Virus record (IMG/VR): IMGVR_UViG_3300025128_000074
Span: 1 to 47,507 of that record
Strand: one strand, 5' to 3'
Length of the DNA stretch: 47,507 nucleotides
Source of the DNA: a virus
The notes under the pieces are model-generated. The model worked only from the letters and a program-made list of their open reading frames with translations. It made no database searches and had not been told where the DNA came from. Position numbers and translations under genes: made by a program. Below, piece after piece: positions 29,396-45,200 of the stretch; position 1 is the stretch's first letter, and each line of letters starts with the position of its first letter.

Positions 29396-30831
29396 GTTGC
29401 CAAATCCTTCTCCTTCAGTTTCCCCTTCTCTATAAGCATCATCTCCAGTACGTCAGGGGTGAAATCCGAAAATGTCATGGACGATGTGTGGAACAGGAGG
29501 TGGCAATCACCGACCGGGCCGTTTCGCTGCTTGGTGATGTACAGATCACGCCTTAAAACCGCCTTGTCCCAACCATCCTTCGCATTGGCTCCGATCCCTG
29601 CTGCTTCCCATTCTTCTGCCACCTTGTCATTTTTTGGCCTAGCATCGTGGAGCATCATAATTGCGTCGGCATCCTGCTCCAGTTGGCCCGTTTCCCTTAA
29701 ATCCGTCATCTTGGGAGCAGAGCGAGAATCCCGCTCCGACTCCCTGTTCATCTGGGCCAGCGCCAGCACCGGCACATTCAGCTCCTTGGCCAGTTGCTTG
29801 ATCCCCATTGAAACCTTGGCCACCTCGTTCTCTCTGGAGGCATACTTGCCCTCCCCGGCAACCAGTTGAACATAATCGATCACAACCAGATCGATGTCGT
29901 GCATGGACTTCATCCTTCTGGCCTTGGCACGGATGTCGGTGATCGTCCCGTTGCCGTCATCGATGTGGATTCCTTTGCCCGATAACTCCGCTACAGCTTG
30001 AGATATGGGAGGCAGATTCTTTTTCTCCAGAAAGCCGGTGCGGTATTTTTGGTAGTCACCCCTGCACCGGGAGAAGATCAGGCGCTTGACCAGCTCCAGA
30101 GAACTCATCTCAAGTGAAAATACGCCTACGGAACCGCCATTCATGGCTACATTCTCGACGATGTTCATCCCGATCGAGGTCTTGCCCATGCCGGGACGAC
30201 CAGCCAGCACGATCATCTCCGTCGGATGCAATCCGCCGGTCATTTTGTCTATATATTTGAACCCGGTTGAAATTCCCGTGATCCGTCCTTCGCCGTACTT
30301 GTAGTTGTCCATCTCAACGGCAAACTTGTGCAATTGCTCGTCCAGAGACGGGTTTTCGCCGCCACGGTTTTTCAGGTTTGCATCCAGCAGCGCCACCTCG
30401 GCCCGATCCACAATCTGCGATATTCCGCCGTGATCCGTCGGCGTCTTCAGCTCGGCAATAATTCCGTTGCAGACTCGGATCGTCTGGCGGCGCTGCATCT
30501 GTTCCCAGACTTCACGAAGATAATACTCCGCCAATCCCGCCGTCACCGCAGCGTCTTCCAGTTCTATCAGGTACTCTATAAAATCGGTATTTGGCTCGGC
30601 CTTTTTTAGCTCAATATTGAGAGTCCTAACATCGATGGCATCCCCATCCGTGTACATTTTGCACAAGGAATTGAAAATCAGCTTGTGTCGGTAGTCGTAA
30701 AACGATTTTTCGGGCGTATCCGTTCCCAAGCGGTCAATGACCATGCTCATCGCAGCGGCTGGATCGGCTATGCAGCAGCCCAGTAGCCCTTTTTCCGCTT
30801 CAAGTGAGTGTAAAGTCTCTAGTTCCTTCAT
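29392..30831 (-). CDS. dnaB: replicative DNA helicase, DnaB type
   Basis: A 479-residue hexameric helicase that unwinds DNA at the replication fork. The N-terminal domain (about residues 1-150) has the DnaB helical fold pattern (LHSLEAEKGLLGCCIADP near the start). The RecA-like ATPase follows, with Walker A GRPGMGKT (211-218), Walker B VVIDYVQL (316-323), and the later motif LAQMNRESE (about 357-365). Its ATG overlaps the stop of the initiator gene (ATGA), so the two are coupled. A 12-15 residue loop after the Walker B region and an acidic C-terminus are typical. It presumably is loaded by the upstream initiator protein. Confidence 0.93.
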   Translation of the reverse strand: MKELETLHSLEAEKGLLGCCIADPAAAMSMVIDRLGTDTPEKSFYDYRHKLIFNSLCKMYTDGDAIDVRTLNIELKKAEPNTDFIEYLIELEDAAVTAGLAEYYLREVWEQMQRRQTIRVCNGIIAELKTPTDHGGISQIVDRAEVALLDANLKNRGGENPSLDEQLHKFAVEMDNYKYGEGRITGISTGFKYIDKMTGGLHPTEMIVLAGRPGMGKTSIGMNIVENVAMNGGSVGVFSLEMSSLELVKRLIFSRCRGDYQKYRTGFLEKKNLPPISQAVAELSGKGIHIDDGNGTITDIRAKARRMKSMHDIDLVVIDYVQLVAGEGKYASRENEVAKVSMGIKQLAKELNVPVLALAQMNRESERDSRSAPKMTDLRETGQLEQDADAIMMLHDARPKNDKVAEEWEAAGIGANAKDGWDKAVLRRDLYITKQRNGPVGDCHLLFHTSSMTFSDFTPDVLEMMLIEKGKLKEKDLAT

Positions 30832-31598
30832 TTTTTTCTCCCAATTTCATTCAATACTTGATTTCTCTCCTTCAACAGCTCCTTGTAATCCTTAATCTCA
30901 TCTGGGGTTCCCTTCACATCCGTCTTGGGGTTTCCGTCGTGTTCCTTGAGCAAAAGCACCAAGGCGTCGTAGCGCTGCCTTTTTTCGTAGGTGGATTCCG
31001 GCTTGGATAAATCCGGCGCGGTTTTTCGCTGCGTTTTGTTAAACCAAGACTGGCATTCAGAAATCATGTGTTTGAGTTGGCTCCCAAATGGCCTGATCTT
31101 GCCGTTGGGGTAAAGGAAGTGGCCTTTGCGGATACACTCCTCATACCACTCACCAGCCCAGACGGGCGGGATCGCTGCTCCCATATTCACCCTTTCAAGG
31201 AATAATTCTTTCTCTATGATAAGAGTATTAGGATTAGTATTAGGATTACTATATAGGGGATTCTCTATTTGAGAATCATCTTTCTCTATTTGAGAATCAT
31301 CTTTCTCTATTTGAGAATGATTCCCTATTTGAGAATCTAAATTAAGTATGTAGGATATTTGACCGTAATCGCTGGTACAGGGGGATATTAACTTTTTACC
31401 TTTTAACGATGTTAGAGCTTTGTAGAAGCAGGATTGGCTCAAGCTGGAGAACTTCATCAGGGTTTCTTTTTTTGCATATACCATGTTGGGTTTGCCTTTC
31501 TCCTCTTTAACCAGCGCTGCCATTGCCACCAGCAACAGCTTTGTTCTTGGGTTGTCGATCTGCTCGTTGAGTGCCAGCCATGTCAGAGGTTTCCCCAT
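30828..31598 (-). CDS. replication initiator-like protein with iteron-bearing linker
   Basis: A 256-residue protein. Residues 1-85 form a winged-helix pattern typical of phage replication proteins (PRTKLLLVAMAALV, then LMKFSSLSQSCFYKALTSLKGKKLI). A hydrophilic linker (residues about 90-125) carries the repeated unit DSQIEKD and an NPNTNPNT stretch. The C-terminal domain is helical with WFNKT and a charged tail and may contact the helicase. It precedes dnaB and overlaps it by 4 bases. The linker DNA contains 21-bp iterons (31265-31336), as in lambda where the origin lies within the O gene. Role as an origin-binding initiator or helicase loader is inferred from fold pattern, position and iterons. 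Confidence 0.7.
   Translation of the reverse strand: MGKPLTWLALNEQIDNPRTKLLLVAMAALVKEEKGKPNMVYAKKETLMKFSSLSQSCFYKALTSLKGKKLISPCTSDYGQISYILNLDSQIGNHSQIEKDDSQIEKDDSQIENPLYSNPNTNPNTLIIEKELFLERVNMGAAIPPVWAGEWYEECIRKGHFLYPNGKIRPFGSQLKHMISECQSWFNKTQRKTAPDLSKPESTYEKRQRYDALVLLLKEHDGNPKTDVKGTPDEIKDYKELLKERNQVLNEIGRKK
31225..31336. other. candidate replication origin: iterons plus AT-rich repeats inside the initiator gene
   Basis: CTATTTGAGAAT occurs at 31265, 31286, 31307 and 31325 (spacings 21, 21 and 18 bp). Each of the first three copies contains the inverted repeat TTCTC-5-GAGAA. Beside them lie two copies of GTATTAGGATTA (31225-31248) and the AT-rich ACTATATA, a likely unwinding region. The amino-acid repeat it encodes is hydrophilic and probably serves as a linker, so the DNA repeat could be the selected feature. 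The position within a winged-helix initiator gene mirrors lambda ori in gene O. Confidence 0.65.
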
Positions 31599-32760: not shown

Positions 32761-32875
32761 CTCTAATTTGCTCAAAGTGTTTAACGCCATCGGCGTCGGG
32801 CTTCATTTCATAGCCCAAACGCGAAAAAAGGCGCCGGGCTGCTTCTGTCTCTGCGAGCTTTTGAGCTGTTGTCAT
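32693..32875 (-). CDS. hypothetical small protein coupled to the RHH gene
   Basis: A 60-residue protein whose ATG (32873-32875) overlaps the TGA of the RHH gene. The first 45 residues form a plausible charged helix and a short strand (TEAARRLFSRLGYEMKP). The last 20 residues lie over the HTH gene in another frame. Unknown function. The coupling to the RHH gene suggests an antitoxin-like or repressor partner arrangement, but no toxin fold is recognised. Confidence 0.45.
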   Translation of the reverse strand: MTTAQKLAETEAARRLFSRLGYEMKPDADGVKHFEQIRDGKANRIHPRRTVQRPTSRQAA

Positions 32876-33072
32876 GCGTTTTGGGCAATGTTTACGGGGT
32901 TGCCTGTGTTGTTTGCCCTGGTGGTTGTCCGGCTGCGCTTCAAGCGCGTGCGGATGTAGGCGCTCACCGTCCGGTCCGCCTTCGCGGCTTCCCTCTTTAG
33001 CCGCTCCAAATCCTCCTGATCGATCGAAAAAGTGACGGTGATCTTTCTCTGCTTCTCTGCTGTCGCTGCCAT
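32872..33072 (-). CDS. ribbon-helix-helix (CopG/Arc-like) repressor
   Basis: A 66-residue protein. Residues about 9-45 fit a ribbon-helix-helix: strand KITVTFSI, helix DQEDLERLKREAAKAD, turn, then RTVSAYIRTRLKRS. These proteins bind DNA as dimers with the strand in the major groove and often recognise short half-sites arrayed at 10-bp intervals. It is the first gene of the leftward early transcript and faces the rightward operon across a 136-bp region with a strong promoter and the TTAAG operator. It is a candidate master regulator of the lysis-lysogeny choice in this phage, as no CI-like repressor is visible. Autoregulation is likely. Confidence 0.75.
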   Translation of the reverse strand: MAATAEKQRKITVTFSIDQEDLERLKREAAKADRTVSAYIRTRLKRSRTTTRANNTGNPVNIAQNA

Positions 33073-33085
33073 GTCTGGGAGGACA

Positions 33086-33112
33086 ATTAAAAGCGAAAAA
33101 AAGTGAAGTCAA
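33086..33112 (-). promoter_or_regulatory. probable leftward promoter of the RHH gene
   Basis: On the minus strand TTGACT (33107-33112) is followed 15 bases on by TTTAAT (33086-33091). The start point would be only about 7-10 bases from the ATG at 33072, and no ribosome site is visible, so the message may be nearly leaderless. The spacing is shorter than the usual 17. Confidence 0.4.
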
Positions 33113-33143
33113 TAAAAACTATGTAGAAAATATTGAAAAAGTA

Positions 33144-33171
33144 TTGACAGTTTAAGTAGTTCGCTTAATAA
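33144..33171 (+). promoter_or_regulatory. strong rightward early promoter
   Basis: TTGACA at 33144-33149 matches the sigma-70 -35 consensus exactly. TAATAA at 33166-33171 lies 16 bases on. Transcription would start near 33178 and read the rightward operon beginning at 33209. The TTAAG operator (33152-33168) fills the spacer, so a bound repressor would block RNA polymerase directly. Confidence 0.65.
33152..33168. promoter_or_regulatory. TTAAG-type operator in the divergent promoter
   Basis: The 17-base sequence TTAAGTAGTTCGCTTAA has inverted TTAAG/CTTAA arms around a seven-base centre. It lies between the -35 and -10 elements of the rightward promoter and matches the reverse complement of the sequence at 38654-38670 at 16 of 17 positions. 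The direction of the central seven bases is conserved, so it is more than a chance palindrome. Likely bound by a phage RHH protein. Confidence 0.65.
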
Positions 33172-33208: not shown

Positions 33209-33664
33209 ATGAAATACGCAATAAAAACAGGCCCATGCGATGCGGCGCAGCTCTTTCAAGCTCGCGCGCACGCTACGGGGGGAAGCGAAATCTTTTACCA
33301 TCATTCGATGTTAAAAAGTTTCAACTACACGCAGGGCGTCAAGATCACCAAGGACATGGCGCGAGCCGATTGGCTGGTGGATTTGATCGCCATCACAGTC
33401 GTTCCGCACCTCCGCAAGCGCTCCGCCGGGTTCATCGGTGGCGATGTCTTCAAGGTCATTCTTGATGTGGATCGCTGGCCGGCACCGGGCGCGCCTGCCG
33501 CAGTGCTTCAAGTCATGGATCGGAACGCCATCCACCCGGCAGGCTGGGGGTCGTGGGACATCGAGTCATGCGATCACCCGATTGGAAAGTGGGAATTCCT
33601 ACTAGGCCGCACAATGCTCGGACAGCGAGCCGTTGAAATGCTTTGGCTACCAAACGAGGACTAA
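33209..33664 (+). CDS. DUF6876-like protein, first gene of the rightward operon
   Basis: A 151-residue soluble protein. It has a FYHHSMLKSFNYTQGVKI stretch near residues 29-46, then ADWLVDLIAI, and a C-terminal half with FKVILDVD, LQVMDRN and HPIGKWEFLLGR. This layout (short Tyr-His motif, TxGV, a hydrophobic WLLD helix and a final W-x-F/L) resembles DUF6876, a family known from phages and mobile elements with no known role. The first gene behind the strong early promoter is a place where takeover or anti-defence genes are often found, but no mechanism is visible. Confidence 0.6.
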   Translation: MKYAIKTGPCDAAQLFQARAHATGGSEIFYHHSMLKSFNYTQGVKITKDMARADWLVDLIAITVVPHLRKRSAGFIGGDVFKVILDVDRWPAPGAPAAVLQVMDRNAIHPAGWGSWDIESCDHPIGKWEFLLGRTMLGQRAVEMLWLPNED

Positions 33665-33667
33665 ACC

Positions 33668-34060
33668 ATGAGCGGATTAAAACTACCACGGACAACCATC
33701 GAAAAATGCAGCGTACGCGGCTGGAAGATGGAGACGCTCACCGACGCTTGGACAATCTCAACTTATCGGATTGCAGGCGGCACGATCCACAGCGCAGCGC
33801 GCGCGCACAACGGGATCACATACACCCACGGAGTCGGCGGAAAAATTACCGGCTACTGCGTGGAGTCGGATTGTGATTGCGAGGTGATCCAGCTCGGCAA
33901 AGAAAAAGCGCGCTGCACGCGCTCCACAATCGAGCGCAAACACGCTGAAGCGCGCACGGAGCTGGATCGGATCATGCACCAGCGCGAGCAGGCAGGAATT
34001 GACCGCGCAGAGGCAGCAGCCGAGCGCGCAGAATCCAGACGCCAAGGAGCCACCGCATAG
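33668..34060 (+). CDS. hypothetical protein with Cys-rich motif and charged helical tail
   Basis: A 130-residue protein with a GAGG ribosome site before the ATG. The first 75 residues are beta-rich and contain four Cys, of which three lie close together in GYCVESDCDCEV (about residues 63-74). The C-terminal 45 residues are an Arg/Glu/Ala-rich helix. The Cys cluster could bind metal. Unknown family. It follows the previous gene by three bases and is followed by a strong hairpin. Confidence 0.6.
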   Translation: MSGLKLPRTTIEKCSVRGWKMETLTDAWTISTYRIAGGTIHSAARAHNGITYTHGVGGKITGYCVESDCDCEVIQLGKEKARCTRSTIERKHAEARTELDRIMHQREQAGIDRAEAAAERAESRRQGATA

Positions 34061-34061
34061 C

Positions 34062-34097
34062 AACCCAGCCGGGCGGGGTAATTCCCGCCCGGCGCAA
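34062..34097 (+). repeat. intergenic 36-bp hairpin element, copy 1
   Basis: Identical over 36 bases to the element at 34588-34623. GCCGGGCGGG and CCCGCCCGGC form a perfect ten-pair stem around the loop GTAATT. It is not followed by a T run, so it may be an RNA-stability or processing element rather than a full terminator. It lies just before the two-gene cassette 34111-34586. Confidence 0.7.
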
Positions 34098-34110
34098 CTT
34101 AAAAAAAACA

Positions 34111-34386
34111 ATGATAAAAATAATAAAAAGCCAATGTATAAAACGCGGCACGGTTCACGCCACGATTGAGATCCACCGTGACGGCTACAAGGCAATCGCC
34201 TTTGGCAAACGCAAAGCGCAGGCCATCATCGAGGCGATCAGGGACAAGGACGCACTCGCGGCGCTGGAGGAGTTTAGCGGCTACGCACAGGCGGACAGAG
34301 AGAGCGCCACACACGCCGCAGAGGCGGCAGACCGGGCCAAGTATAACGACGGTTGGAAAGCCCAAGGAAAGGAGGCCACAGCATGA
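34111..34386 (+). CDS. free GKRKAQAI-domain protein (paralogue of part of 27474-28517)
   Basis: A 91-residue protein. Residues about 13-57 share the pattern HATIEIHRDGYKAIAFGKRKAQAI and LEEFSGY with residues 166-208 of the multidomain protein encoded at 27474-28517. The rest is an Ala/Glu/Lys-rich helical tail. The leader before the ATG is A-rich without a clear ribosome site. The two proteins share a small alpha/beta unit with the invariant FGKRKAQAI segment; the unit is not known to me. They may bind the same partner or nucleic acid. Stop and next start overlap by 4 bases. Confidence 0.65.
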   Translation: MIKIIKSQCIKRGTVHATIEIHRDGYKAIAFGKRKAQAIIEAIRDKDALAALEEFSGYAQADRESATHAAEAADRAKYNDGWKAQGKEATA

Positions 34387-34586
34387 ACAACGCAGAGCGA
34401 GAGCAGTGGGTCAACAACGACGAAGGGTTGTACCGCTGGCGCAACCGCGAGGGCGGGACCATGCGCGATTTCTTGAAGCGCAACCGCCTAACAATTGACG
34501 CCCACATAGCGACGGCGACGGGCCGGATCGACGTGGAAAAGTGCCTCGCGCGGGAGTATTACCCGGCGAGCAGGATCAACATCTAA
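34383..34586 (+). CDS. hypothetical small basic protein
   Basis: A 67-residue protein from ATG at 34383, which overlaps the TGA of the previous gene (ATGA). It begins MNNAEREQWVNNDEGLYRWRN and has helical, Arg-rich segments. There is no motif. With its neighbour it makes a two-gene unit set between the two identical hairpins. Confidence 0.55.
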   Translation: MNNAEREQWVNNDEGLYRWRNREGGTMRDFLKRNRLTIDAHIATATGRIDVEKCLAREYYPASRINI

Positions 34587-34587
34587 A

Positions 34588-34623
34588 AACCCAGCCGGGC
34601 GGGGTAATTCCCGCCCGGCGCAA
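34588..34623 (+). repeat. intergenic 36-bp hairpin element, copy 2
   Basis: An exact copy of the element at 34062-34097, 526 bases away. Read on the minus strand, five T follow the stem after four bases, so it could stop antisense transcripts. The two copies could recombine and delete the two genes between them. Confidence 0.7.
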
Positions 34624-34635
34624 TCACTAAAAACA

Positions 34636-35397
34636 ATGGACAAAGAAACAAGAGAAACCAAAGACAACACATACAACCGCCACGAGACAATCATCACGGC
34701 GCAGAACAGCCAAGGCGACTACGTTAAGGACGCCACGCACGGAAGACCAGAGCTGCCAGAAAACGGCGAGCTGTACCACTACAGCGTGGCCATTCAGAGC
34801 TGGCGAAACGAGAAACCACCGTGCGGTCGCTCACAGGACTGTCACTTTGACGTTCAAGACGATCACACGGTATTCACATACGACGAGGCGGTGAAGGTGG
34901 CCGAGGAACTCGAAACCAAGTGGTGCGGCCCTCGCCTCCTCGATCTGGACGACGCGCAGGGGTCGTTTGCGATGTCAATACCGTCTCCCGCCGACTTCGT
35001 GGGATTCGCCACCTACACAATCACGACGATCATGCAGGGAACACGCGCCGACAACGGCTACCCGATGATCCTGAAACGGCTGGCGGAGTGCGGCTGGGGA
35101 TCAGAGCCGGAGCTGTTCCAGTTTGTCGGCATCACCGCAGCGGTCGCTCACGGCGCGCTGACAGTCCGCGAGGACTACGACGACACCATCGAGAGGGGAA
35201 TCTATTTAGACATCGTTTTCGACTACGCAGAGCGGTTCTGCGAGTGGTTGGAGGAGTGGACAGCGAACCAGCTTGATCCTTGGAACGCGCGGGAGATCGA
35301 CATCCGCAACTTGATGCACAGCGCCGTGGATCAAATGCGGAAGATGGACGACCTTGAAGACAAAATGTTGAGCACCCCAAAGGAGGCAACAGCATGA
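34636..35397 (+). CDS. hypothetical protein, 253 residues
   Basis: The largest protein of the rightward operon. It is acidic and mainly helical. The first 65 residues are polar with a short Cys pair (C63/C69 area, PPCGRSQDCHF). Residues about 110-230 have alternating helices rich in Asp, Glu and Tyr (for example DDTIERGIYLDIVFDYAERF). Highly acidic early phage proteins are sometimes DNA mimics or anti-defence inhibitors; that is only a possibility. No ribosome site is visible before the ATG. It overlaps the next gene by 4 bases. Confidence 0.55.
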   Translation: MDKETRETKDNTYNRHETIITAQNSQGDYVKDATHGRPELPENGELYHYSVAIQSWRNEKPPCGRSQDCHFDVQDDHTVFTYDEAVKVAEELETKWCGPRLLDLDDAQGSFAMSIPSPADFVGFATYTITTIMQGTRADNGYPMILKRLAECGWGSEPELFQFVGITAAVAHGALTVREDYDDTIERGIYLDIVFDYAERFCEWLEEWTANQLDPWNAREIDIRNLMHSAVDQMRKMDDLEDKMLSTPKEATA

Positions 35398-35630
35398 GCA
35401 ACAACAAGAACCGCTGGCTCATCAGCGACATTTGCGTAATGGTAGCGGTGGGACTTTGTTCCCACCGCGACCACTCGGACACGACGATCAGGACACTCAT
35501 CAACGACATGATCGACACACGCGAGAAGGACGGCCACATGAAAGTCCCAACCAACTACAGCCAAGAGCGCGCCGTGGCCAAGGTCAAGAGCCACCTAAAG
35601 AGCTGGAAAAGACTGGAGGCCCACCGATGA
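35394..35630 (+). CDS. hypothetical small protein
   Basis: A 78-residue protein starting in an ATGA overlap. It has a short hydrophobic stretch (SDICVMVAVGL, about residues 11-21), then a His/Asp-rich segment and a basic C-terminal helix (VAKVKSHLKSWKRLEAHR). The family is unknown. The basic tail suggests nucleic-acid contact. It is linked by ATGA overlaps to both neighbours. Confidence 0.55.
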   Translation: MSNNKNRWLISDICVMVAVGLCSHRDHSDTTIRTLINDMIDTREKDGHMKVPTNYSQERAVAKVKSHLKSWKRLEAHR

Positions 35631-35818
35631 GCTTCATAAATAGAAAAGAAACCCGCACCCGCATCCTTGGCTCCGAGAGGGCCAAGGTTGCGGGGTTGAC
35701 GCGCGTCAGCGACGCCTACCTAAACCGCCTTGAATCGGAGTACATCAACATGGTTGACGCCCATGTCAAACGACACCCAAGCAAGGGCAAAACCTTTCAA
35801 CCCTACAACATAATATGA
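35627..35818 (+). CDS. possible minimal histone-fold protein
   Basis: A 63-residue basic protein. Residues 20-62 follow the order of a single histone fold as in short bacterial histones: a short first helix, then VAGLTRVSDAYL (RVS at 26-28, entering the long middle helix), a helix of about 23 residues (LNRLESEYINMVDAHVKRH), then the loop GKT (54-56) and FQP before the third helix. The same order (RVS, a helix, GRKT/GKT, x-x-P) marks archaeal and bacterial histones. The third helix is truncated (ends at residue 63), so the fold would be minimal. It starts and ends in ATGA overlaps. A short helical protein of another kind is the main alternative. Confidence 0.45.
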   Translation: MSFINRKETRTRILGSERAKVAGLTRVSDAYLNRLESEYINMVDAHVKRHPSKGKTFQPYNII

Positions 35819-36213
35819 TTTACCGTTTAATCGAATTGGAGTGCCTACAGAGGGCGCTAGACAAGTACGAGGCCATCGCAGAGACTTTCTTCGATGTACC
35901 CAAGCCCATGCCGCCGCTCCACCGAAAGGGCGGCGTGAACATGGAAGGCGAACACAACTACGGGCCGGAAATGTTCCAGAGCTGCGCCACCTACTGGGCC
36001 GAGCTGCTGGGCCAGTACAACGACAGCAGCGAACTGCTTAATCAATGGAAGGACGAAGACGGCTGGCACGCGGAGATCAGGAGCTTCGGCTTTGTCATCC
36101 GCGTCACTTGCAGGGCGAAGGAAGGACAGGGCCACATGGTCAGCCTTTGGAAGACCGACGGCGACGAGCCGCAACTAATCATACAGGACGAGCCAGAGGA
36201 GGAAATCGAATGA
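35815..36213 (+). CDS. hypothetical acidic protein
   Basis: A 132-residue protein starting in an ATGA overlap. An internal in-frame ATG at 35941 (MEGEHNYGPEMF) also has a plausible upstream sequence, so two products are possible. The C-terminus is strongly acidic (DEPEEEIE). The middle has beta strands (WHAEIRSFGFVIRVTCRAKEG). No known motif is seen. It overlaps the next gene by 4 bases. Confidence 0.55.
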   Translation: MIYRLIELECLQRALDKYEAIAETFFDVPKPMPPLHRKGGVNMEGEHNYGPEMFQSCATYWAELLGQYNDSSELLNQWKDEDGWHAEIRSFGFVIRVTCRAKEGQGHMVSLWKTDGDEPQLIIQDEPEEEIE

Positions 36214-36428
36214 GCAAGAACAACGGCCACCACGCCGTCTCCGGCGACCCGATGATCCAGCATTTCAGCCACTTCACAGAGGACGGCGCGGAGGATCAGT
36301 GGATCGCCTTCACTCTCAACGACGACGGCAAGGTCAGCAAGAGCCTCCCTGTCAGCGCTGACGCCACGACGTTGTTTGCTTACGGCCTCCGCCAAGTCGC
36401 GAGGTACATCTACGACGATGCCAAATAA
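36210..36428 (+). CDS. hypothetical small protein
   Basis: A 72-residue protein from ATG at 36210 in an ATGA overlap. It is polar to acidic (HFTEDGAEDQWIAFTLNDDGKVSKS) with a helical end (LFAYGLRQVARYIYDDAK). There is no recognised family. It ends 11 bases inside a very short membrane-protein gene (36418-36531). Confidence 0.5.
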   Translation: MSKNNGHHAVSGDPMIQHFSHFTEDGAEDQWIAFTLNDDGKVSKSLPVSADATTLFAYGLRQVARYIYDDAK

Positions 36429-36531
36429 ACTGCCCCCACACGCAATAATCGCCGCCGCCCTTTGGATAACAGGGGCGGCGGCTTTCGTTGTCGTCGTGAT
36501 CGCGCTCATTGTGAAGGTGAATAACCTGTGA
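36418..36531 (+). CDS. 37-residue single-span membrane peptide
   Basis: A short frame starting 11 bases before the end of the previous gene. The product begins MPNKLPPHAIIAAALW and has one strongly hydrophobic segment at about residues 9-32 (AAAFVVVVIALIV near the end), then KVNNL. The length and composition are those of small phage membrane peptides such as superinfection-exclusion or holin-like proteins. It is the last frame of the coupled string. Coding is inferred from the overlap and hydrophobic pattern. Confidence 0.45.
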   Translation: MPNKLPPHAIIAAALWITGAAAFVVVVIALIVKVNNL

Positions 36532-36560
36532 GCAGAAACTAATAACAATTGATTGATTTA

Positions 36561-36573
36561 CTTAATAGTTAAG
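36561..36573. promoter_or_regulatory. CTTAA-3-TTAAG inverted repeat before the second RHH gene
   Basis: CTTAATAGTTAAG has the same half-sites as the two 17-base operators, but in the opposite order and with a three-base centre. It lies 33-45 bases before the ATG of the RHH-like gene at 36606. A TTGATT at 36549 may be a -35 element. Suggests feedback by an RHH protein. Confidence 0.5.
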
Positions 36574-36605
36574 CATTACAAACGCCGTAGCCCGGCATCA
36601 TATAG

Positions 36606-36857
36606 ATGGCAAAGCGCAAAAATAAAACACCAGATGGTAAGACTCTTGTCACCATCTATTTAGACAAAGAGGAACTCTTGATGTACAAAAAAAGAGCAGT
36701 TGAACACGGACTAACCCTGTCCCGCTACTTCGCGCATTTGGCGCGGAGGGAGGCGCTGGGAGAGAACAAAGACCTGCGCCTGTACACCGAGACGGACTCT
36801 CTGAAGGTAAAGTTAAGGGAGTCCATCCAGAAGTCGGACAAACTATTCAAACGATAA
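36606..36857 (+). CDS. second ribbon-helix-helix-like protein
   Basis: An 83-residue protein. After a basic start (MAKRKNKTPDGK) residues about 13-48 show a strand TLVTIYLD, a helix KEELLMYKKRAVEHG, a turn, and LTLSRYFAHLARREAL, the RHH pattern. The last 30 residues are a charged helix. It could act as a repressor or as an antirepressor that forms mixed dimers with the leftward RHH protein. The gene follows the inverted repeat at 36561-36573 and lies at the end of the rightward operon. Confidence 0.6.
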   Translation: MAKRKNKTPDGKTLVTIYLDKEELLMYKKRAVEHGLTLSRYFAHLARREALGENKDLRLYTETDSLKVKLRESIQKSDKLFKR

Positions 36858-36865
36858 AAAAATAA

Positions 36866-37201
36866 ATGAAAGACGAGATCGACGGCATGACAAGGGGCGT
36901 CGTGACGGTTCTTGAGAACCAGATCGACGCCGAAACCAACATCCAAAGCAATTGTCGCTACATTAAAATCGTTACCACAATCTGCTGTATAACCACCCTA
37001 TCCTCGCTCGCCTGCGGGTTCTTTTGGCACGCGCGAGTGCAGGAACTGGCCAAGGAACACGCCGAGTCGGTTTATCTAAAAACAGTGATCGCTGGACTTG
37101 AAGCAGAAGTTGATATTACCAAATGGCTTTGTCAACGATGTCAACCACAGATGCACGATTGGCTCCTCCAAACCGGGCAAACGCCGATGGTGAAAAATTA
37201 A
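36866..37201 (+). CDS. membrane protein with one span
   Basis: A 111-residue protein with a hydrophilic N-terminus (about 33 residues), one hydrophobic span (about residues 34-54, including VTTICCITTLSSLACGFFW), and a C-terminal part with a charged helix and a CQRCQP pair of Cys. The leader is A/T-rich without a ribosome site. It could be a superinfection-exclusion or lysogenic conversion protein; nothing else supports that. A terminator-like hairpin follows directly. Confidence 0.55.
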   Translation: MKDEIDGMTRGVVTVLENQIDAETNIQSNCRYIKIVTTICCITTLSSLACGFFWHARVQELAKEHAESVYLKTVIAGLEAEVDITKWLCQRCQPQMHDWLLQTGQTPMVKN

Positions 37202-37247: not shown

Positions 37248-38534
37248 TTATGAGGCTTCAGCGGCAGTTTGCGTTTTAGAGCCGTAGTCGTACATGACCG
37301 GCTTGGGCGTGGAGGGCATGACGTAGCGCTTTGTCGTCTTAATGTCTCGGTGACCCAGCGCATTCATCACATCGATCGTGTTGTTGAACTGATTGACCCG
37401 CGTCGCGAATATCTTCCGCAGCTCATGTGCCTTCTGGCGGCGCGTCCAGCCGTGGGTTTTCATATATTTACCAAGAGCAGTAAAACCTCTGCAAGCGGTC
37501 TTGCCCTCATTCCGATCCCCAAAATAACCCTTGTCGCCCGGCACGATATGACCCGGCCCCTGCTGGCCCTTTGGAACCACAAAGTCGTCACCGCCCATCG
37601 GCCAGCCGCGCTTGAGCGCTTCACGCTGCAAGTCGGCCTTCAGCTCCTCCGGCACGGCGATCCGACGCTCGGACTTGCCCTTCGTCATGTGATCCGACTC
37701 AATTCTCGTCACGATGTAAAGCTGGCCATCCTCCACGATGAACCAGCCCCAGCGCATCGCCAAAACCTCACCCTTCCTCAACCCGGCATAGCTGCACAAT
37801 TTGAAACAGAACCAAGTGCGTGGTGTGGACACCAGCAGTGAGTCGGCGTTGGCCCAGATCGCATCAACGACCTTCTCATCAGGGAGCGTGTATTTCTCCT
37901 TCGACAGAACCGGCATCAACGGAGTCTCTTTCAAATCCTTGAGCGCCGGGATATTCAAGCCAGCATAAATCTTCTTCTTAACCGTCTTGCGGCTGAACAC
38001 GCCGCGCGCGCACCGCAGCCTGTTGTTGATCGTCTCATGCACCGAGTCCTTGGCCTTCATGTCATTTTTAACAGGCTTCAGCATGGCGCTCATCCACTTA
38101 TTTATCGTCTTCGCGTTCAGCACCGAGAGGGGCAGCGCGTGAATCTGCGCGACCTTCTCCGGCGTCGCCGTCTCGTCAGGTGACAGGATGCCCGTCCCAA
38201 CCCCCGCGATCTTGTAAAGGCCGGAGAGGTAGCCCGACAGAGTTGTATCCGCGAGCGGCAGCAACTCCTGATTTGCTTTGAGCACAGCCACGACCTGACC
38301 GATCGTCGCCCAGTTCCCGCTCGCCGCCTTCGTCTCGGTGACGGCCTCCCACTTGCCAGCCAGCGCCGCCTCAAAGACCGGGTTAGCCAACTTCTCCGCC
38401 TCCTCCTGATTAGAGACGCCCAGCGCCTGACGGATGCGCTCCCCGTTGAACATCATGTTGATCGACCAGTTCTTTCCCCGGCGACGGAGAGTGATCGAGT
38501 GTCCCTTGTGCTTGTAGATATGCTTGTTTTTCAT
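37248..38534 (-). CDS. int: tyrosine-type integrase
   Basis: A 428-residue site-specific recombinase that inserts the phage genome into the host chromosome. The N-terminal part (about residues 1-70) is an arm-type DNA-binding domain with basic strands (KGHSITLRRRGKNWSI). A core-binding domain follows, and the catalytic domain carries Arg 253 in GLRKGEV, a beta-hairpin Lys near 285-287, His-x-x-Arg 370-373 in HELRKIF, His 395 in LGHRDIK and the nucleophile Tyr 404 in RYVMP. All catalytic residues are present. The gene reads toward a bidirectional hairpin and its start side faces the tRNA fragment and the repeat cluster at 38543-38850. It presumably integrates into a tRNA-Thr gene. Confidence 0.92.
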   Translation of the reverse strand: MKNKHIYKHKGHSITLRRRGKNWSINMMFNGERIRQALGVSNQEEAEKLANPVFEAALAGKWEAVTETKAASGNWATIGQVVAVLKANQELLPLADTTLSGYLSGLYKIAGVGTGILSPDETATPEKVAQIHALPLSVLNAKTINKWMSAMLKPVKNDMKAKDSVHETINNRLRCARGVFSRKTVKKKIYAGLNIPALKDLKETPLMPVLSKEKYTLPDEKVVDAIWANADSLLVSTPRTWFCFKLCSYAGLRKGEVLAMRWGWFIVEDGQLYIVTRIESDHMTKGKSERRIAVPEELKADLQREALKRGWPMGGDDFVVPKGQQGPGHIVPGDKGYFGDRNEGKTACRGFTALGKYMKTHGWTRRQKAHELRKIFATRVNQFNNTIDVMNALGHRDIKTTKRYVMPSTPKPVMYDYGSKTQTAAEAS

Positions 38535-38616: not shown

Positions 38617-38645
38617 AAACTACATAGCTGGAATCTGAGTGTCAA
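38617..38645 (-). promoter_or_regulatory. probable integrase promoter
   Basis: On the minus strand TTGACA (38640-38645) is followed 17 bases on by TAGTTT (38617-38622), a weak -10. Transcription would begin about 75 bases before the integrase ATG. The TTAAG operator (38654-38670) lies nine bases upstream of the -35 element. Confidence 0.4.
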
Positions 38646-38653
38646 GGGTTAAT

Positions 38654-38670
38654 TTAAGCGAATTACTTAA
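38654..38670. promoter_or_regulatory. TTAAG-type operator near the integrase promoter
   Basis: TTAAGCGAATTACTTAA is the reverse complement of the early-promoter operator (33152-33168) except for one base. It lies just upstream of the likely integrase promoter. Together with the sites at 24013, 33152 and 36561 it suggests a common regulator. Confidence 0.6.
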
Positions 38671-38721: not shown

Positions 38722-38771
38722 TGGAGCCAGTTGTCGGACTCGAACCGACGACCGTTCGATTACAAATCAAA
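38722..38771 (-). other. attP candidate: 3' half of a tRNA-Thr (UGU) gene
   Basis: Read on the minus strand this is the anticodon arm (anticodon TGT), variable loop, T-arm (GTCGG-TTCGAGT-CCGAC) and acceptor strand AACTGGC-T with an encoded CCA. The anticodon stem can pair (TTTGA with TCGAA, one G-T pair). The 5' half is missing: no GCCAGTT partner occurs upstream. Integrative phages carry such 3' halves so that the host tRNA is restored on integration. C2-G71 and G1-C72 implied by the 3' strand fit tRNA-Thr. Adjacent integrase supports the attP call. Confidence 0.8.
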
Positions 38772-39006: not shown

Positions 39007-39231
39007 CTAGTCACGCTCCAGAAAGAGGGGGGTCTGGGGGCCGACATATCCGCCGACTACATTGAACTCAAAGAAGTCGCTGGCCTCGTCCCGGCTCATG
39101 CCGTCCCGCCGCATTAGAATTTCGAGGCATTTGTAATAATCGTAGACGGCTACCCATGTCGCGCCCTGACGGGCTTGGCCCAGATAAGCATCCTCAAAGC
39201 CGTCGGCTAACAGGACGCCTTCCTCGATCAT
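39007..39231 (-). CDS. small conserved-looking phage protein behind the giant gene
   Basis: A 74-residue acidic protein starting in an ATGA overlap with the giant gene. It contains DGFEDAYLGQARQG, then VAVYDYYKCLEILMRRDGMSRDEA and FFEFNVVGGYVGPQTPLF, a pattern I associate with a family of short phage and prophage proteins of unknown function. It is the last gene of the late transcript, 304 bases before the terminator. No motif suggests an activity. Confidence 0.7.
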   Translation of the reverse strand: MIEEGVLLADGFEDAYLGQARQGATWVAVYDYYKCLEILMRRDGMSRDEASDFFEFNVVGGYVGPQTPLFLERD

Positions 39232-42200
39232 TTCTTGAAGTCCTCGGCCAGCGTGTCCAGCTCCCGGCGAGCCGCCGCCCGGCCCACCTCCGTCTCGGCC
39301 TGATCGACTTGTTGCTCCGCCGCATTGAACAGAGAGATGAACGGCATAAGCTCTAAATATCGCTCGTTCTGCTGCTCCGTCCGGCCTCCCATGATGGCAG
39401 GGCCACCCTCCATGTAGCCCTCGCCTTTCGGCGCGCCGATCGATTGCAGGACATGATATTCCCGGTGCAGGTCGCGAACCGGCTCGCTGAACTCCAGAAA
39501 CAGCTCATCCCGGCGCTCCTGCTCCCGACCCTTGGCCTTGCGCTGGATTTCACGATAACCAAAGTCGCTGATCTTAACGAACCGATTCATGGGGCCACCA
39601 AATGTGCGGATTTTACCCTCGATGCCGTCCATAGAGTCGGCGTCATATCTGAACCAATCCTGCAAGCCGGTTTGCCCAAACGACCAGATAAACATATCGT
39701 CCAAGCCCCTCAAGCCGCCAGCGCTGAACTCACGACTGGGGACGACAGAGCGATCACCAAAGCCGTCCTTGGGGTTGCGTTGGAAAGCGTACTCCGTCCA
39801 GCCGTGCAGGAGTGTCAGAACCGGGTTGAATCCCGGCAGTTGATCCCCCCCAAATTCCAATCCCGTCGCCGCGCTGCTCATTGCCTCGACAGGATCGCCA
39901 TTCTCCATCGCCTCCGCCGCGCCCCGCGACATGATGTACATGAGGCCAGAGATCAAACGACTCGTCTCGTCCTTGGGGATGCGGAGATACGCGACTTTCT
40001 TGCCAAAATCAGAAGTCTCATCCGCCACAAGGCCAATCGGCACGACGTTGTAGTTGGCCATGTCGTAGTCGCTCACACCGTCAAACAGCTCCTTGAGATA
40101 TGACCCCAAAAGACCGGCGGCAGCAGCCCCCATCATCATGGCCCACATCCCATCCCCAGACGAAAATCTCATCCACCAGCCTGATCTTGTCTTGGGATCG
40201 GTGGCCTTCTCGTAATCCGACTTCCATCCTTTAAGGAACACATTCCAGAACGGCACGATCGCTCGCGCCACCTTGATGGCTGATCCTTTCTTGTAGACAT
40301 TGGGCGTGCCAACGAAGTTTCTGATCTCGATTGAGAAATCCTTGGGCGACACGCCTCTCTCCTTGAAGACCACGCCAGCCGCGAGCTTCGGCAGGGATTC
40401 ACCGACCTGCCCAGAAAACTCCAGCCATTTGAATGCTTTCTTAAATCCGCGGACGATCTTCCGATGATCCGCGTCCTTGGGCAGCATATTGTAGCGCTGG
40501 AGCATATCCTCGTAATAGCCCTGACCAGCAATCTCGCCAGAGTGCATGGTGGAAACCGCGGAAAGTTCAATGTCGCTGATGGCGTAATTCTCCATCAACT
40601 CGGTCACAAGGGGATCATTCCTGCCCAACGACCGCCGGAAAGCTGGCGCAAGCGCCTTGACATACGCCTTGCCCAATTTGATCGAACCCACATTCAGATT
40701 GCGGCGCGTGCGGCTGAAATCCCGCTTCAAGTTGGACGCTTGGAAGGCTATATTGTAGGTAATCCAGAACGGGTAAAAGCCAGTACGAAACATGGCATCC
40801 AGAGGCCGAAGTGCCTTCTCCAAATCCCCAGCCGTTTTGTTCTCAAAGCCCGACGCGATATGCTCCTCGACCTCATAGAACTTGGGCCGCCCATTGTCCA
40901 ACACCATCAAGTGACCAAAGCCGGGCGCGGGACGCTTGGTGACGACGGTCTGGCCCTCTGCGTTACGTCGCGTCGGGGCCAGCGTGATCTCGGTTGGGAA
41001 ATGCTTCTTCATCAGGTCGATGAAGCTATTCTTGGACTTCTGGATGGCGATCAGGTGGTTTACGCTAAAGAGCTTGATGATCGTCGCTGTCATCGGGTTG
41101 GCGATGTCTCGGAGCGTGCCGATCTGCTCCTTGATACCCGCCGGGATGTAGGTTTCCAGATAGTCCAGAACCGCGAACGTGGCATAGAAATCCTTGTTAG
41201 GCAGAATCTTCTCCACAAAGGTGCGCTGGTTGTACGCACCGACCTTCACCGCCTCCCTCACAATCTCAAAGTTGATCTCATGGAACGCCTTGGCGGCGCG
41301 CTCCATGATGGTCATGCGGTCAAAGCCCATCAGCAGGCGCATATTGAGAAGCTGCTGCTGGGCGCTTACCGGCTCCAGACCCATCGGGTTGGCCAGCCCA
41401 GAGCGCTCGTTGACGATCCGCTGGAGCATCAGGTATTCCCCGAACTGGTTGGTGTCGATCTTAAACTCGTCCAGCTCGTTGACGACCTTGCGGTGAATGA
41501 GCTTCATCATCCGCCGGTTGCGATTGTCCACCAGAGACTCCTGCTCAAAGAAATTGCGGGGATCACGATTCGGTGGGACATCGGCCCCGTTGCGAATAGC
41601 CTCCTTAACTTTCTGCACAGCGGCGTAGCGAGCGTCATCAAACGCCTGCATGACATCGAGCATATACCCCTTCCAGCTCCTGCGCCGCAGCTCGGCCTCC
41701 TCCAGCTTGCGTGCGAGGATTGCATCGCCCTTCTCAAACGCCTCCGCAGTTTTGGATGAGCGCGCCTTCGCCACGCTGAACTGGCCGTTATTAAGGAACT
41801 GCTGCAACCCAAAGAACGCCTCCTTCACCTCCGGCTTGGCGTCGATGTAGTTCCAGAACATCTGGTAGAAATGCGGCGAGTGTTCCTGCAAAAGACCCGG
41901 TGAATTGAGCATCACCGACAGTGCATCGGCGTACAGCTCCTTGCTCGACTCCCGGTACTTGATGTAGTGCGGGGAAACCTCCTCCTTGTTGTACGGATGC
42001 CAGAACTCGGACAGATCGATCAGCTCCTGCGCGATCACATCCGCTTCGGCCAGCCCACGGCTCTTGATGGCCTTCTCCACCAGCTCGGCGTAGCGCTTCT
42101 TCACCCTCTCCTGCCAGCGCTTCATATCCGCTGGCTGACCAGAGGGGCGCGAACCGTTCTCCCGCTCGGCCTGACGCCGCAGAGCCGCCCGGTCGCCCCT

Positions 42201-45200
42201 GTTCAAGCCCTCACCACCGGGTTTTATGGGAAAAGTCTTCTTCAAGAATCCCGTCAAAGAGGCCAGCCGTCCCAGAATGTTGCCCCGCTTCAAGTGCTGG
42301 TCTGGGATGTAGTCAGCCAGATGACCAATCTCATGGGCCAGCACCTTGGCGGCGGTGACAGGATCGAGGAAGATCGAGCGATCCAGATGGATTTCAATCC
42401 CGCGCGGCCCGTACCTGAAAAAGCCAGCCGTCCCACCGCGCAGCTTCCGCGTCTTGGGCAGCTCACCCACCAGCTCCTTGGCCAGAGCCACCAGCTCCGG
42501 CAGCATCACCGGGCTGATGTGATCCATACCACCCAGCTCCATCTTGACGACCTCTGGCACGCCACCCTTCTTGATTGGCGCAGCAGAGAAAGTTATTTTA
42601 GGCGTCGGCCTGTCCTCCACCATCAAGCTGGCCTGCTCGCGCGGCTGGCCAAACCACTTATCGTTTGCAGGCAACCCCAAGGAAGCTCGGCGGCTGGTTG
42701 GGGTGGCTCCGCCGGTAATCACATCGGCAAGCACGCCTGCCTCGATGAGCGTGTCCAGCAGATTGGCCTTCTCCGGCGAGAGAGAACCCTTGAAGTAGGC
42801 TACACCTTGAGCCGCACCAGCCTGCTGCGCCTCCCGGCGGATCGAGGCCACCAGCTCGTCCAGAGGAGTGGAGAGATTCAGCTCGGCAAGCGTTCGCACA
42901 TGGCCGGTGGTCGTCGTGTACATGAGCGACACATGGCCTTCACCGTGCATGATGTTCTGCCCAACCGCAGCCACATCCCTCACCACATCCGCACCAATTG
43001 GCTGGGCAATCTCCGGCCCTAAAAGTGGATCTACCTCCGGCCCAGCCGTCTCGATAATCTTACCATCCCACTTGCCCTCCCAATCCATAACCGCCGCCTT
43101 GCGGTGATCGATTGTCACCGCGCCGTTGAACAAAGGTTTAAGGAACGGATGAGATACCAGGGCGCGAGTTGTTTCCCCGTCCTTGATGCTGGGCTTGGGA
43201 TCGCCAGAGGGATGATTATGCACCATGTAGAACCCGTCCGCGCCGTGGGCCTTGAACGAGTTGATGAGCGACTCAAGGGAGGCCGCGCCCGGCGGCAGCG
43301 CCGCCACGCTGGTTGGCATCCGGCTGGTCACACTCTGCACGGACACCACCTTGCCCTCCTTCATCAGCACCCAGCGGTAGGTTTCGATTGAAGGGTTGCG
43401 GAACACTTGGAACACCTCCGCAGCGTGGTTGATGCTCTTGATTTGTCGCCCGGCAATCTCCAAGCCGCGCGGCGAGCTGATGTCCTGCCTGACTTGCCGG
43501 GCAATCACCCGCTGCGGGGATGGCGCTGTCCTGTCCAGCGGCGCTGGCTCCTTCACGACCGGGTTGGTGCCGACGCCCACCGCAGCCTCCAGCGCGTCAA
43601 AGTCCACTTGCGCCTCCGACTTGTACCTGACCGGGGGCGCCTGACTGACACGGCCCACTTCCGTATCCGCAATCTCTCCCTTCACCGACGCACCCAGCAG
43701 CTTCAGCTTGGCCATGATGATGCCGCTGTTCCATTGGTCGAGCTGGTGGCCGGAGTGAAGGATGTGCATCTCCGACTTGCTGGCTGTCATCAGGCGGTTC
43801 ACACGACCGGCCATCTGCACAAACTCCAGAGCGGAGAAGGGTGGGGTGATGACGATCACCGAGCGCGGCGCGTCTCCATAGAGATCATCCAGACTGACGC
43901 CTGTGCCACCCGTCTCCGGCGTAGCCAGCACCACCTTGTGAATGCCCTCTTGAAATTTCTCAATGGTGTCCTGCTTGGCCATCCTCGCGGACTCGTTTGC
44001 CGCTGAACCAAACAGCCTGCCCACTTCGCCGGGCATATCCTTGTTCAAGCTCTGGAATATCGTTTCCAGCCCGTTGTCCAGCCCCCATCGGCCCACGTTC
44101 ACCCGCTGCGCGAACACCACCACCTGACGCCCCTGCGCCACCGTGTCCTTGGTGATCTTTATTGCTTGAACAGCCTTCACGCTTTCCAGCGCCTGACGGC
44201 CAGCCATCATCACCAGCCGCTTCACCGCGCCTGCTGGCCAGCCTTTGCTGCCGTATTCCTCTGCGGCCATTTGCATGATCTTTTCAACCGTCGCAGTCTG
44301 GTCAGCGGACAGTTGGATGGTTCGGAAATCTATCTCGATATTGTCGAGCGGAACCTCATGTTTAACCGCCAGCCCGGCGCGGGTTATATTGTCAAACATC
44401 CGCTCAAGGTTTCGTTCTATCTGGTCAAACGTAACCTCCTCTCCCGTTTTGGGGTCAACGGCTGGCGTGAACGTCACACGGGTTTCGCCGTTGACGATTG
44501 TCTCGTTCTTTACAAGACCCACCGCGAGCAGGGCCAGCTCTGGGGAAATTCTGTCGCCTGCACGATTCACCAGAATCGAATTCATATAATAAATGCCGTG
44601 CGGCTTATCCAACGGTGTGGCGGTGGCAAACACGACATGATCCGCGGACTCGGCCAGCTTCCGGCCACGGTGAGCTTGAATGGAGGAGCCTTGGTTGCGG
44701 AGATTGTGGGCCTCGTCAAAGATCACCGTCTGCCAGCCCTTTGGCTTGACCACCCCGCGCGCGACGTCGGTGTAAGTGGCCAGCAAAATCTCCTGCCCCG
44801 GCTTGATCTCGCCGCCCCGGTAGCGCCACAACTCCACCCCCAACATCGCAGAGTCACGCGCAAAGGCGTCGTTGATGATGCCGTCACTCTCGGTGACGAT
44901 CAGAACCGGCTGGAGAGGGGGTTGAGGGATGGCTCCCTCGATTGAAACGCCCGGCTCATCCATAAGGCCCAGCGAGCGGCGCACCTCCTTGGCCTTGGCG
45001 ATCGCTGCCGCCGCGATGGAGATTTCCACCATCGTCTTGCCTGCGCCAGTACCGCTGAAGATGGCAAAGTCCTTGCCTTGTGTCAGCGCGTCAAAGGCCC
45101 GGTTAACCTCCTCGATCTGGTGGGGGCGCAGGATTTTCGCCTGCTTGGGGATCAGCTTGGCGACGTGGTTGGGCTTGTTGGCCCGGTTGGGGGCAAGGTG

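Follow-up and report, generated by a model that had tools for sequence, protein, structure and literature searches.

A probable repressor-controlled early accessory operon with a plasmid-associated DUF6876 gene in a temperate tailed phage

In IMG/VR virus record IMGVR_UViG_3300025128_000074, twelve short plus-strand genes (g1 to g12, positions 33209-37201) probably make up an early accessory operon, lysogen-repressed and similar to the lambda pL operon, in a temperate phage. All 47,507 bases of the record were analyzed and are referred to as the window. We base this reading of an early, repressor-controlled accessory operon on the position of the genes, a predicted operator in their promoter, the turnover of genes between relatives and the finding that no protein matched a structural family. 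The locus itself is of an ordinary, known kind, an early accessory operon under probable repression, with one useful lead: g1 encodes a member of DUF6876, a plasmid family without an assigned function across its members. Most genes that phages express early lack a known function, and the locus ties one such gene to a plasmid-borne family that is testable in laboratory strains.

Results

The phage and its relatives

The window represents a temperate tailed phage, as follows from its phage gene set, its integrase and an attP-like half of a tRNA-Thr gene. The minus strand encodes a DnaB helicase, an SSB, the large terminase (TerL), a major head protein, tail fibres and the tyrosine integrase. The sole long plus-strand coding region found in the window lies at 33.2-37.2 kb, and positive AT skew occurs mainly at 33-37 kb, by far the strongest and the only strong positive stretch. 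Among sequenced phages, no close relative was identified by megablast or by tblastn with g1 and g7. For host genomes, contig profile searches with g7 and integrase alignments gave no match. Comparisons were made with records G001 and G002, both from one metagenome, with a third, more distant phage, L019, and with two further phage contigs, L020 and L045, which are otherwise unrelated to the window phage.

Twelve tightly packed genes under purifying selection

The twelve genes occupy 96.2% of 33209-37201. Exact ATGA overlaps join g3/g4, g5/g6, g6/g7, g7/g8 and g8/g9, and g9 and g10 overlap by 11 nt. A preliminary description of this DNA had proposed about a dozen short, coupled genes with five ATGA overlaps, which agrees with this count. 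Open reading frames (ORFs) of at least 60 aa starting with ATG cover 92.8% of the plus strand here; in 200 dinucleotide-Markov random sequences the coverage averages 38.3% and never exceeds 73.4%.

For g1-g11, pairwise comparison with the homologues in G001, G002 and L019 showed more synonymous (pS) than nonsynonymous (pN) differences, with ratios of nonsynonymous to synonymous substitution rates (dN/dS) of 0.13-0.57 where computable. Judged by these alignments, the homologues in the related uncultured phages evolve under purifying selection; for g12 the relatives hold a positional counterpart only. A relaxed region of little function, in which small ORFs stay open by chance and accumulate neutrally, would agree with the many proteins without known domains and with the gain and loss of genes between relatives. 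Since pS lies well above pN for g1-g11 across divergent phages, and since gene order, hairpins and operator are conserved, this explanation is disfavoured and appears very improbable.

The six genes g1, g3, g5, g8, g11 and g12 have no Shine-Dalgarno sequence, and a clear A-rich leader precedes only g1, g3, g5 and g12, of which the latter three follow a gap. GGAGG-type ribosome sites lie inside the upstream gene for g4, g6, g7 and g9, but not g8. The earlier statement that many genes lack ribosome sites and have A-rich leaders is correct for those six genes as to the sites and for four of them as to a clear leader; it fails for four of the five ATGA-coupled genes, whose sites are strong.

A divergent promoter region with a predicted operator shared with the integrase

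The operon lies back-to-back with the replication and regulator genes, which run leftwards from 33072, and converges on the integrase gene (37248-38534, minus strand). The preliminary description had the genes face the replication genes; the orientation is the reverse, as the operon diverges from them and faces the integrase.

The operon promoter contains a perfect -35 element, TTGACA (33144-33149, plus strand), kept in G002 and L019, and a weak -10 element, TAATAA (about 33166-33171), where G002 has TAGAAT and L019 TAAAGT. In the spacer between -35 and -10 lies a predicted operator, the 17-bp inverted repeat TTAAGTAGTTCGCTTAA (33152-33168, plus strand). The exact 17-mer occurs once in the window, and its sole near-copy, with 16/17 matches, is located upstream of the integrase promoter (38654-38670, minus strand). 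In G001, a similar site, TTAAGTAATTTACTTAA, precedes the integrase at the matching position. The matching spacer position of the operon promoter is occupied in G002 by CTATGTAGTTCACATAG, palindromic in 6 of 8 pairs, and in L019 by TTATTTAGTTCACATAA, an imperfect repeat and weaker palindrome. Between the window and G002 the operator arms change jointly, as would be expected for a dimeric repressor site.

A second site, CTATGTAG, lies between the divergent promoters (33119-33126, plus strand) and also over the -10 of the integrase promoter (38620-38627). This CTAYRTAG element occurs five times in the window versus 0.65 times expected. Its half site AAAAACTATGTA is kept in G002, and L019 carries there a perfect 26-bp palindrome, CAATAAAAACTACATAGTTTTTATTG.

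The divergent promoter, with a -35-like TTGACT (33107-33112, minus strand) and a -10-like TAATTG (33084-33089), would serve rhhM, and its TTGAC is kept at the equivalent place in G002. rhhM (32872-33072, minus strand) encodes a 66-aa CopG/Arc-like ribbon-helix-helix (RHH) protein with homologues in G002 and L019 and is our candidate repressor. It passes the RHH_1 profile (22.1 bits, cut-off 20.5) and matches PHROGs repressor families at E 0.002-0.006. Its beta-strand reads ITVTFS in the window, VMVSFS in G002 and QMVSFS in L019, which, for three sequences only, is suggestive of a DNA-reading strand that varies in step with the operator.

The integrase is assigned by Phage_integrase (E 1.6e-13; 51.2 bits, cut-off 27.1) and phrog_1 (E 6e-29). 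The attP-like 3' half of a tRNA-Thr(TGT) gene (38722-38770, minus strand) is identical in G001; a tRNA 3' half beside an integrase is the usual mark of attP, and no whole tRNA gene was found in the window. The L019 integrase is 47% identical, and a different, apparently whole tRNA lies beside it (L019 5931-6000).

A 74-nt gap precedes g11 and holds its own inverted repeat, CTTAATAGTTAAG (36561-36573, plus strand), a candidate second promoter/operator. Because of this gap and repeat, g11-g12 are probably a separate unit, and the cluster would consist of two units, g1-g10 and g11-g12. The candidate promoter before g11 would also suit cargo expressed in the lysogen: the genes, or at least g10-g12, could be prophage morons that exclude other phages (superinfection exclusion), like P2/P4-like defence hotspots. 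Their location beside int, where the prophage ends, and the membrane proteins g10 and g12 point the same way, and prophages are known to hold anti-phage hotspots (PMC9122126). However, an operator in the main promoter that is also found before int speaks against constitutive expression, and no PADLOC match was obtained. A moron, moreover, usually consists of a single gene or a handful of genes framed by a dedicated promoter and terminator, whereas ten genes are coupled here. Taken together, we consider such cargo unlikely.

g1 belongs to a family found on plasmids

g1 (33209-33664, plus strand, as are all operon genes; 151 aa) is 74% identical to its G002 and 45% to its L019 homologue. It matches DUF6876 (Pfam PF21781; E 1.3e-7, 32.1 bits, cut-off 27), which confirms an earlier hint of a DUF6876-like protein. 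The homologues in G002 (28.8 bits) and L019 (36.1 bits) likewise exceed this cut-off, the L019 copy aligning to profile positions 11-114 of 117. No DUF6876 was matched by tblastn in 50,697 phage records, with g1 of the window or a Pseudanabaena protein as query; 94 plasmid records were matched.

In 5 of 17 plasmid contexts, representing four lineages, ArdA, ArdC or ArdC-like zincin genes lie at most 5 kb from DUF6876. The remaining contexts hold SSB, RepA, ParB or nothing named, and RadC is also among the plasmid neighbours. In Acetobacter plasmids with DUF6876, helicase, ParB, DUF3085, zincin and TOPRIM genes occur in one stretch. As a control, 245 kb from elsewhere on these five plasmids was inspected, and no ArdA, ArdC or zincin gene is annotated there. 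ArdA and ArdC counteract restriction (PMC5512222), and the leading regions of plasmids contain clusters of anti-defence genes (PMC11541004). From its neighbourhood, an anti-defence role appears plausible for g1. The predicted structure of g1 was poor (pLDDT 58.6) and gave no PDB match, and a literature search found no paper naming DUF6876.

A wider proposal is possible but not probable: DUF6876 might be a new family for anti-restriction or DNA establishment common to plasmids and temperate phages, the operon an anti-defence island with cassettes swapped at hairpin and ATGA junctions, and g2, g4, g7 and g8 further new anti-defence families.

The remaining genes match no family of known function

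Downstream of g1, g2 (33668-34060, 130 aa) is 64% identical to its G002 and 34% to its L019 homologue (dN/dS 0.46-0.51); the corresponding values are 43% and 53% for g3 (34111-34386, 91 aa), 59% and 53% for g4 (34383-34586, 67 aa) and 51% and 40% for g6 (35394-35630, 78 aa). g4 has a C-terminal third unlike that of every relative, and its relative in L045 is closer to the L019 copy (85% identity) than to that of the window (62%). g5 (34636-35397, 253 aa) is about 31% identical to its L019 homologue, and G002 has two other genes instead. g7 (35627-35818, 63 aa) is the most conserved gene, with 86/86/71/67% identity in four phages. Further downstream, g8 (35815-36213, 132 aa) is 66% identical to its G001 homologue (dN/dS 0.42), and g9 (36210-36428, 72 aa) shares 59% with G001 and 41% with L019. 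g10 (36418-36531) encodes a 37-aa predicted single-span membrane microprotein, recognized by its hydrophobic stretch (G001 55%, L019 49%).

g11 (36606-36857, 83 aa; G001 64%, L019 58%) matches a NikA-like profile at E 0.0015 with 19 bits against a cut-off of 27. The RHH-like character ascribed to one operon protein earlier thus has weak profile evidence, with a score too low for assignment to the family. g12 (36866-37201, 111 aa) has one apparent membrane span. G001 and L019 carry a membrane protein of unlike sequence in this slot; identity to the G001 gene is 16%, a level at which homology is unsupported.

No operon protein matched a family of known function in PADLOC, PHROGs or NCBIfam, and the Pfam, PHROGs and NCBIfam results contained no anti-defence family. 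Profiles from the same three databases gave no match to a structural family for any of the proteins, the kind of match that the preliminary description had named as evidence to look for against its own reading; a structural role of the operon was rejected on these grounds. A known defence system was likewise rejected, as PADLOC was negative for the ten operon proteins scanned with it. Plasmid relatives of g4, g5 and g8 were not found.

A possible resemblance of g7 to alpha3 histones

The g7 model contains helices at residues 6-15, 17-22 and 29-49 and a C-terminus of low confidence, i.e., a short alpha1, a 21-residue alpha2 and a nearly absent alpha3. In alpha3 histones, alpha1 is short, alpha2 is shortened by 4-5 residues, alpha3 comprises 3-4 residues and the motif RKTxxxD is present (PMC11390915). 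The g7 end, KGKTFQPYN, resembles this motif but lacks its aspartate. An alpha3-histone-like architecture, as suggested by the model, is unproven: the histone-like hint given earlier is retained as a resemblance in motif and secondary structure, and it is backed by no sequence or fold match. The best PDB profile match of g7, to Cas9 residues 75-124 (E 0.1), is probably due to chance, and a role as Cas9 mimic was rejected.

These features bear on another alternative, a DNA-transaction module in which g1, g7 and their neighbours, instead of counteracting host defence, serve in binding or packaging the phage DNA or aid replication and recombination, with g7 as a minimal bacterial-type (alpha3) histone. 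The helix pattern and the near-RKTxxxD end of g7 would fit, as would SSB, RepA, ParB and RadC among the plasmid neighbours of DUF6876. Against it, the motif aspartate is missing from g7, no match to g7 was obtained in Pfam, in the PDB or among viral structures, and the g1 model matches nothing. We regard such a module as quite unlikely.

Conserved hairpins and junction repeats in a rearranging gene set

A 26-nt GC hairpin, GCCGGGCGGGGTAATTCCCGCCCGGC, follows g2 (34068-34093, plus strand), and an identical copy follows g4 (34594-34619, plus strand), i.e., two copies versus 0.02 expected. Its folding is strong (z -4.1 for copy 1, about -4 overall). The hairpin is kept at equivalent junctions in G002 and L019, though the adjoining proteins are only 34-64% identical to those of the window. 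It was rejected as a plus-strand terminator because no U-run follows either copy on that strand in the window; a terminator-like tail is found for copy 2 only, on the minus strand. Possible roles are processing, mRNA stability or blocking of antisense transcription.

The relatives retain a skeleton of the gene set while individual genes move or are gained and lost. The order in G002 is new gene-g1-g2-hairpin-g3-g6-g4-hairpin-two new genes-g7-g8, in G001 g7-new-g8-new-g9-g10-g11-membrane gene, and in L019 g1-g2-hairpin-g3-hairpin-g6-g4-hairpin-new-g5-n3-g7-new-g9-g10-g11-membrane gene. The extra first gene of G002 (L018 3281-3583), between promoter and DUF6876, encodes a 100-aa protein that is rich in cysteine and zinc-ribbon-like. 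In the window, g6, which lies between g3 and g4 in G002 and L019, sits downstream of g5, and g4 has a replaced end just before the second hairpin; rearrangement boundaries lie near the conserved GC hairpin. The g3/g4 and g5/g6 junctions have a 24-nt repeat in common (92%), and such repeats may therefore be exchange points.

g4 was found in the unrelated contig L045 and g7 in the unrelated contig L020, which share no other operon gene. A further small gene (56% identical between L020 2825-3276 and L045 1609-2069) adjoins g7 in the former and g4 in the latter. Because g4, g7 and this common neighbour occur in unrelated contigs, these small genes, paired as they are there, travel between phages.

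Other features of the window

Just beyond int lies a gene (39228-47507, minus strand; probably continuing at 1-1564) whose polyvalent-type product exceeds 2,700 aa and contains ResIII/DEAD helicase and RadC domains. Matches to G001 show that the window is a circular permutation, and this gene spans its ends. Within a replication-initiator-like gene (30828-31598, minus strand) lie four 21-nt iterons (31253-31341), each an inverted repeat ATTCTC-TATTT-GAGAAT. In the G002 array at the equivalent position, both arms are altered jointly to AGTCCG-TATTT-CGGACT. The array may be a lambda-O-like origin whose initiator sites coevolve.

Discussion

Our preferred interpretation is that of a lysogen-repressed early accessory operon, which would run from a divergent control region towards attP/int and be silent in the lysogen. 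A small RHH repressor, most likely rhhM, would bind the 17-bp inverted repeat in the promoter and the near-copy before the integrase promoter, so that operon and integrase would be co-regulated. Upon infection or induction, a short polycistronic mRNA would yield about ten small proteins before the late genes are expressed, several of them made by coupled re-initiation. These proteins would target the host or shield the DNA as it enters, g1 probably having an establishment or anti-restriction type of function common to plasmids. g11-g12, which encode a further RHH-like protein and a membrane protein, would be a sub-unit with its own promoter, and genes would be swapped as cassettes at the repeated junctions.

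Genes, overlaps, operator copies, hairpins, homology, altered gene orders and the occurrence of DUF6876 on plasmids are direct results of the sequence analysis, whereas timing, the repressor's identity and the function of each protein are inferred. Several observations weigh against this interpretation. The strong, repressible promoter of the preliminary description is upheld in its second part by the predicted operator in the spacer; its strength is unproven because the -10 of the window is poor, and a consensus promoter scan did not list it. The repressor could instead be g11 or an unseen protein. Turnover is not significantly higher than in the rest of the genome, with 23/30 operon genes shared versus 63/70 elsewhere (Fisher p 0.11). 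PADLOC, which models defence and not anti-defence, was negative for the ten operon proteins scanned. As to the plasmids, 12 of 17 DUF6876 contexts contain no named anti-restriction gene, a Pfam scan of ten unnamed DUF6876 neighbours revealed none, and the 245-kb controls were drawn from plasmids already picked as positive. For the first and last of these reasons, the anti-restriction neighbourhood is suggestive, a lead and not proof. Of the store of host-takeover or anti-defence functions proposed earlier, there remains indirect evidence for g1 only, from the plasmid neighbours of its family; no anti-defence family was matched.

The analysis nonetheless provides ranked candidates instead of a dozen equal unknowns: g1, followed by g4 and g7, both of which occur in unrelated phages. 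g1 is a testable lead on how the phage may evade host defences, and the conserved hairpins together with the junction repeats point to a way in which genes may be exchanged in such operons.

Among known systems, the lambda pL operon is similar in that it diverges from the replication operon, runs towards attP/int, has its operator in an immunity-like region and carries many small non-structural genes. In the window, the sequence places the operon divergent from the replication genes and directed towards attP/int, and it shows a predicted operator within the operon promoter that is shared with the int promoter. Unlike in lambda, the integrase lies on the opposite strand, the candidate repressor is an RHH protein and not a CI-type helix-turn-helix protein, and the gene products are unrelated, no N, Gam, Exo or Bet homologue being seen. 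The anti-defence islands of plasmid leading regions (PMC11541004) are also small gene clusters of mixed content that are first expressed on entry, as we propose for the operon, and DUF6876 itself occurs on plasmids, sometimes beside ArdA, ArdC/zincin or SSB; the operon differs in belonging to a phage and in containing no known anti-defence gene. Polyvalent or DarB-type anti-restriction proteins (PMC5512222) have parallels in the >2,700-aa helicase and RadC protein beyond int and in the gene stretch of the Acetobacter DUF6876 plasmids, whereas the operon genes are small, single-domain and apart from that protein. Finally, g7 resembles the alpha3 bacterial-dimer histones (HBb/Bd0055; PMC11390915) in length, in the predicted helix pattern and truncated third helix and in a KT near the C-terminus, and differs from them in the missing motif aspartate and in having no detectable sequence or fold match.

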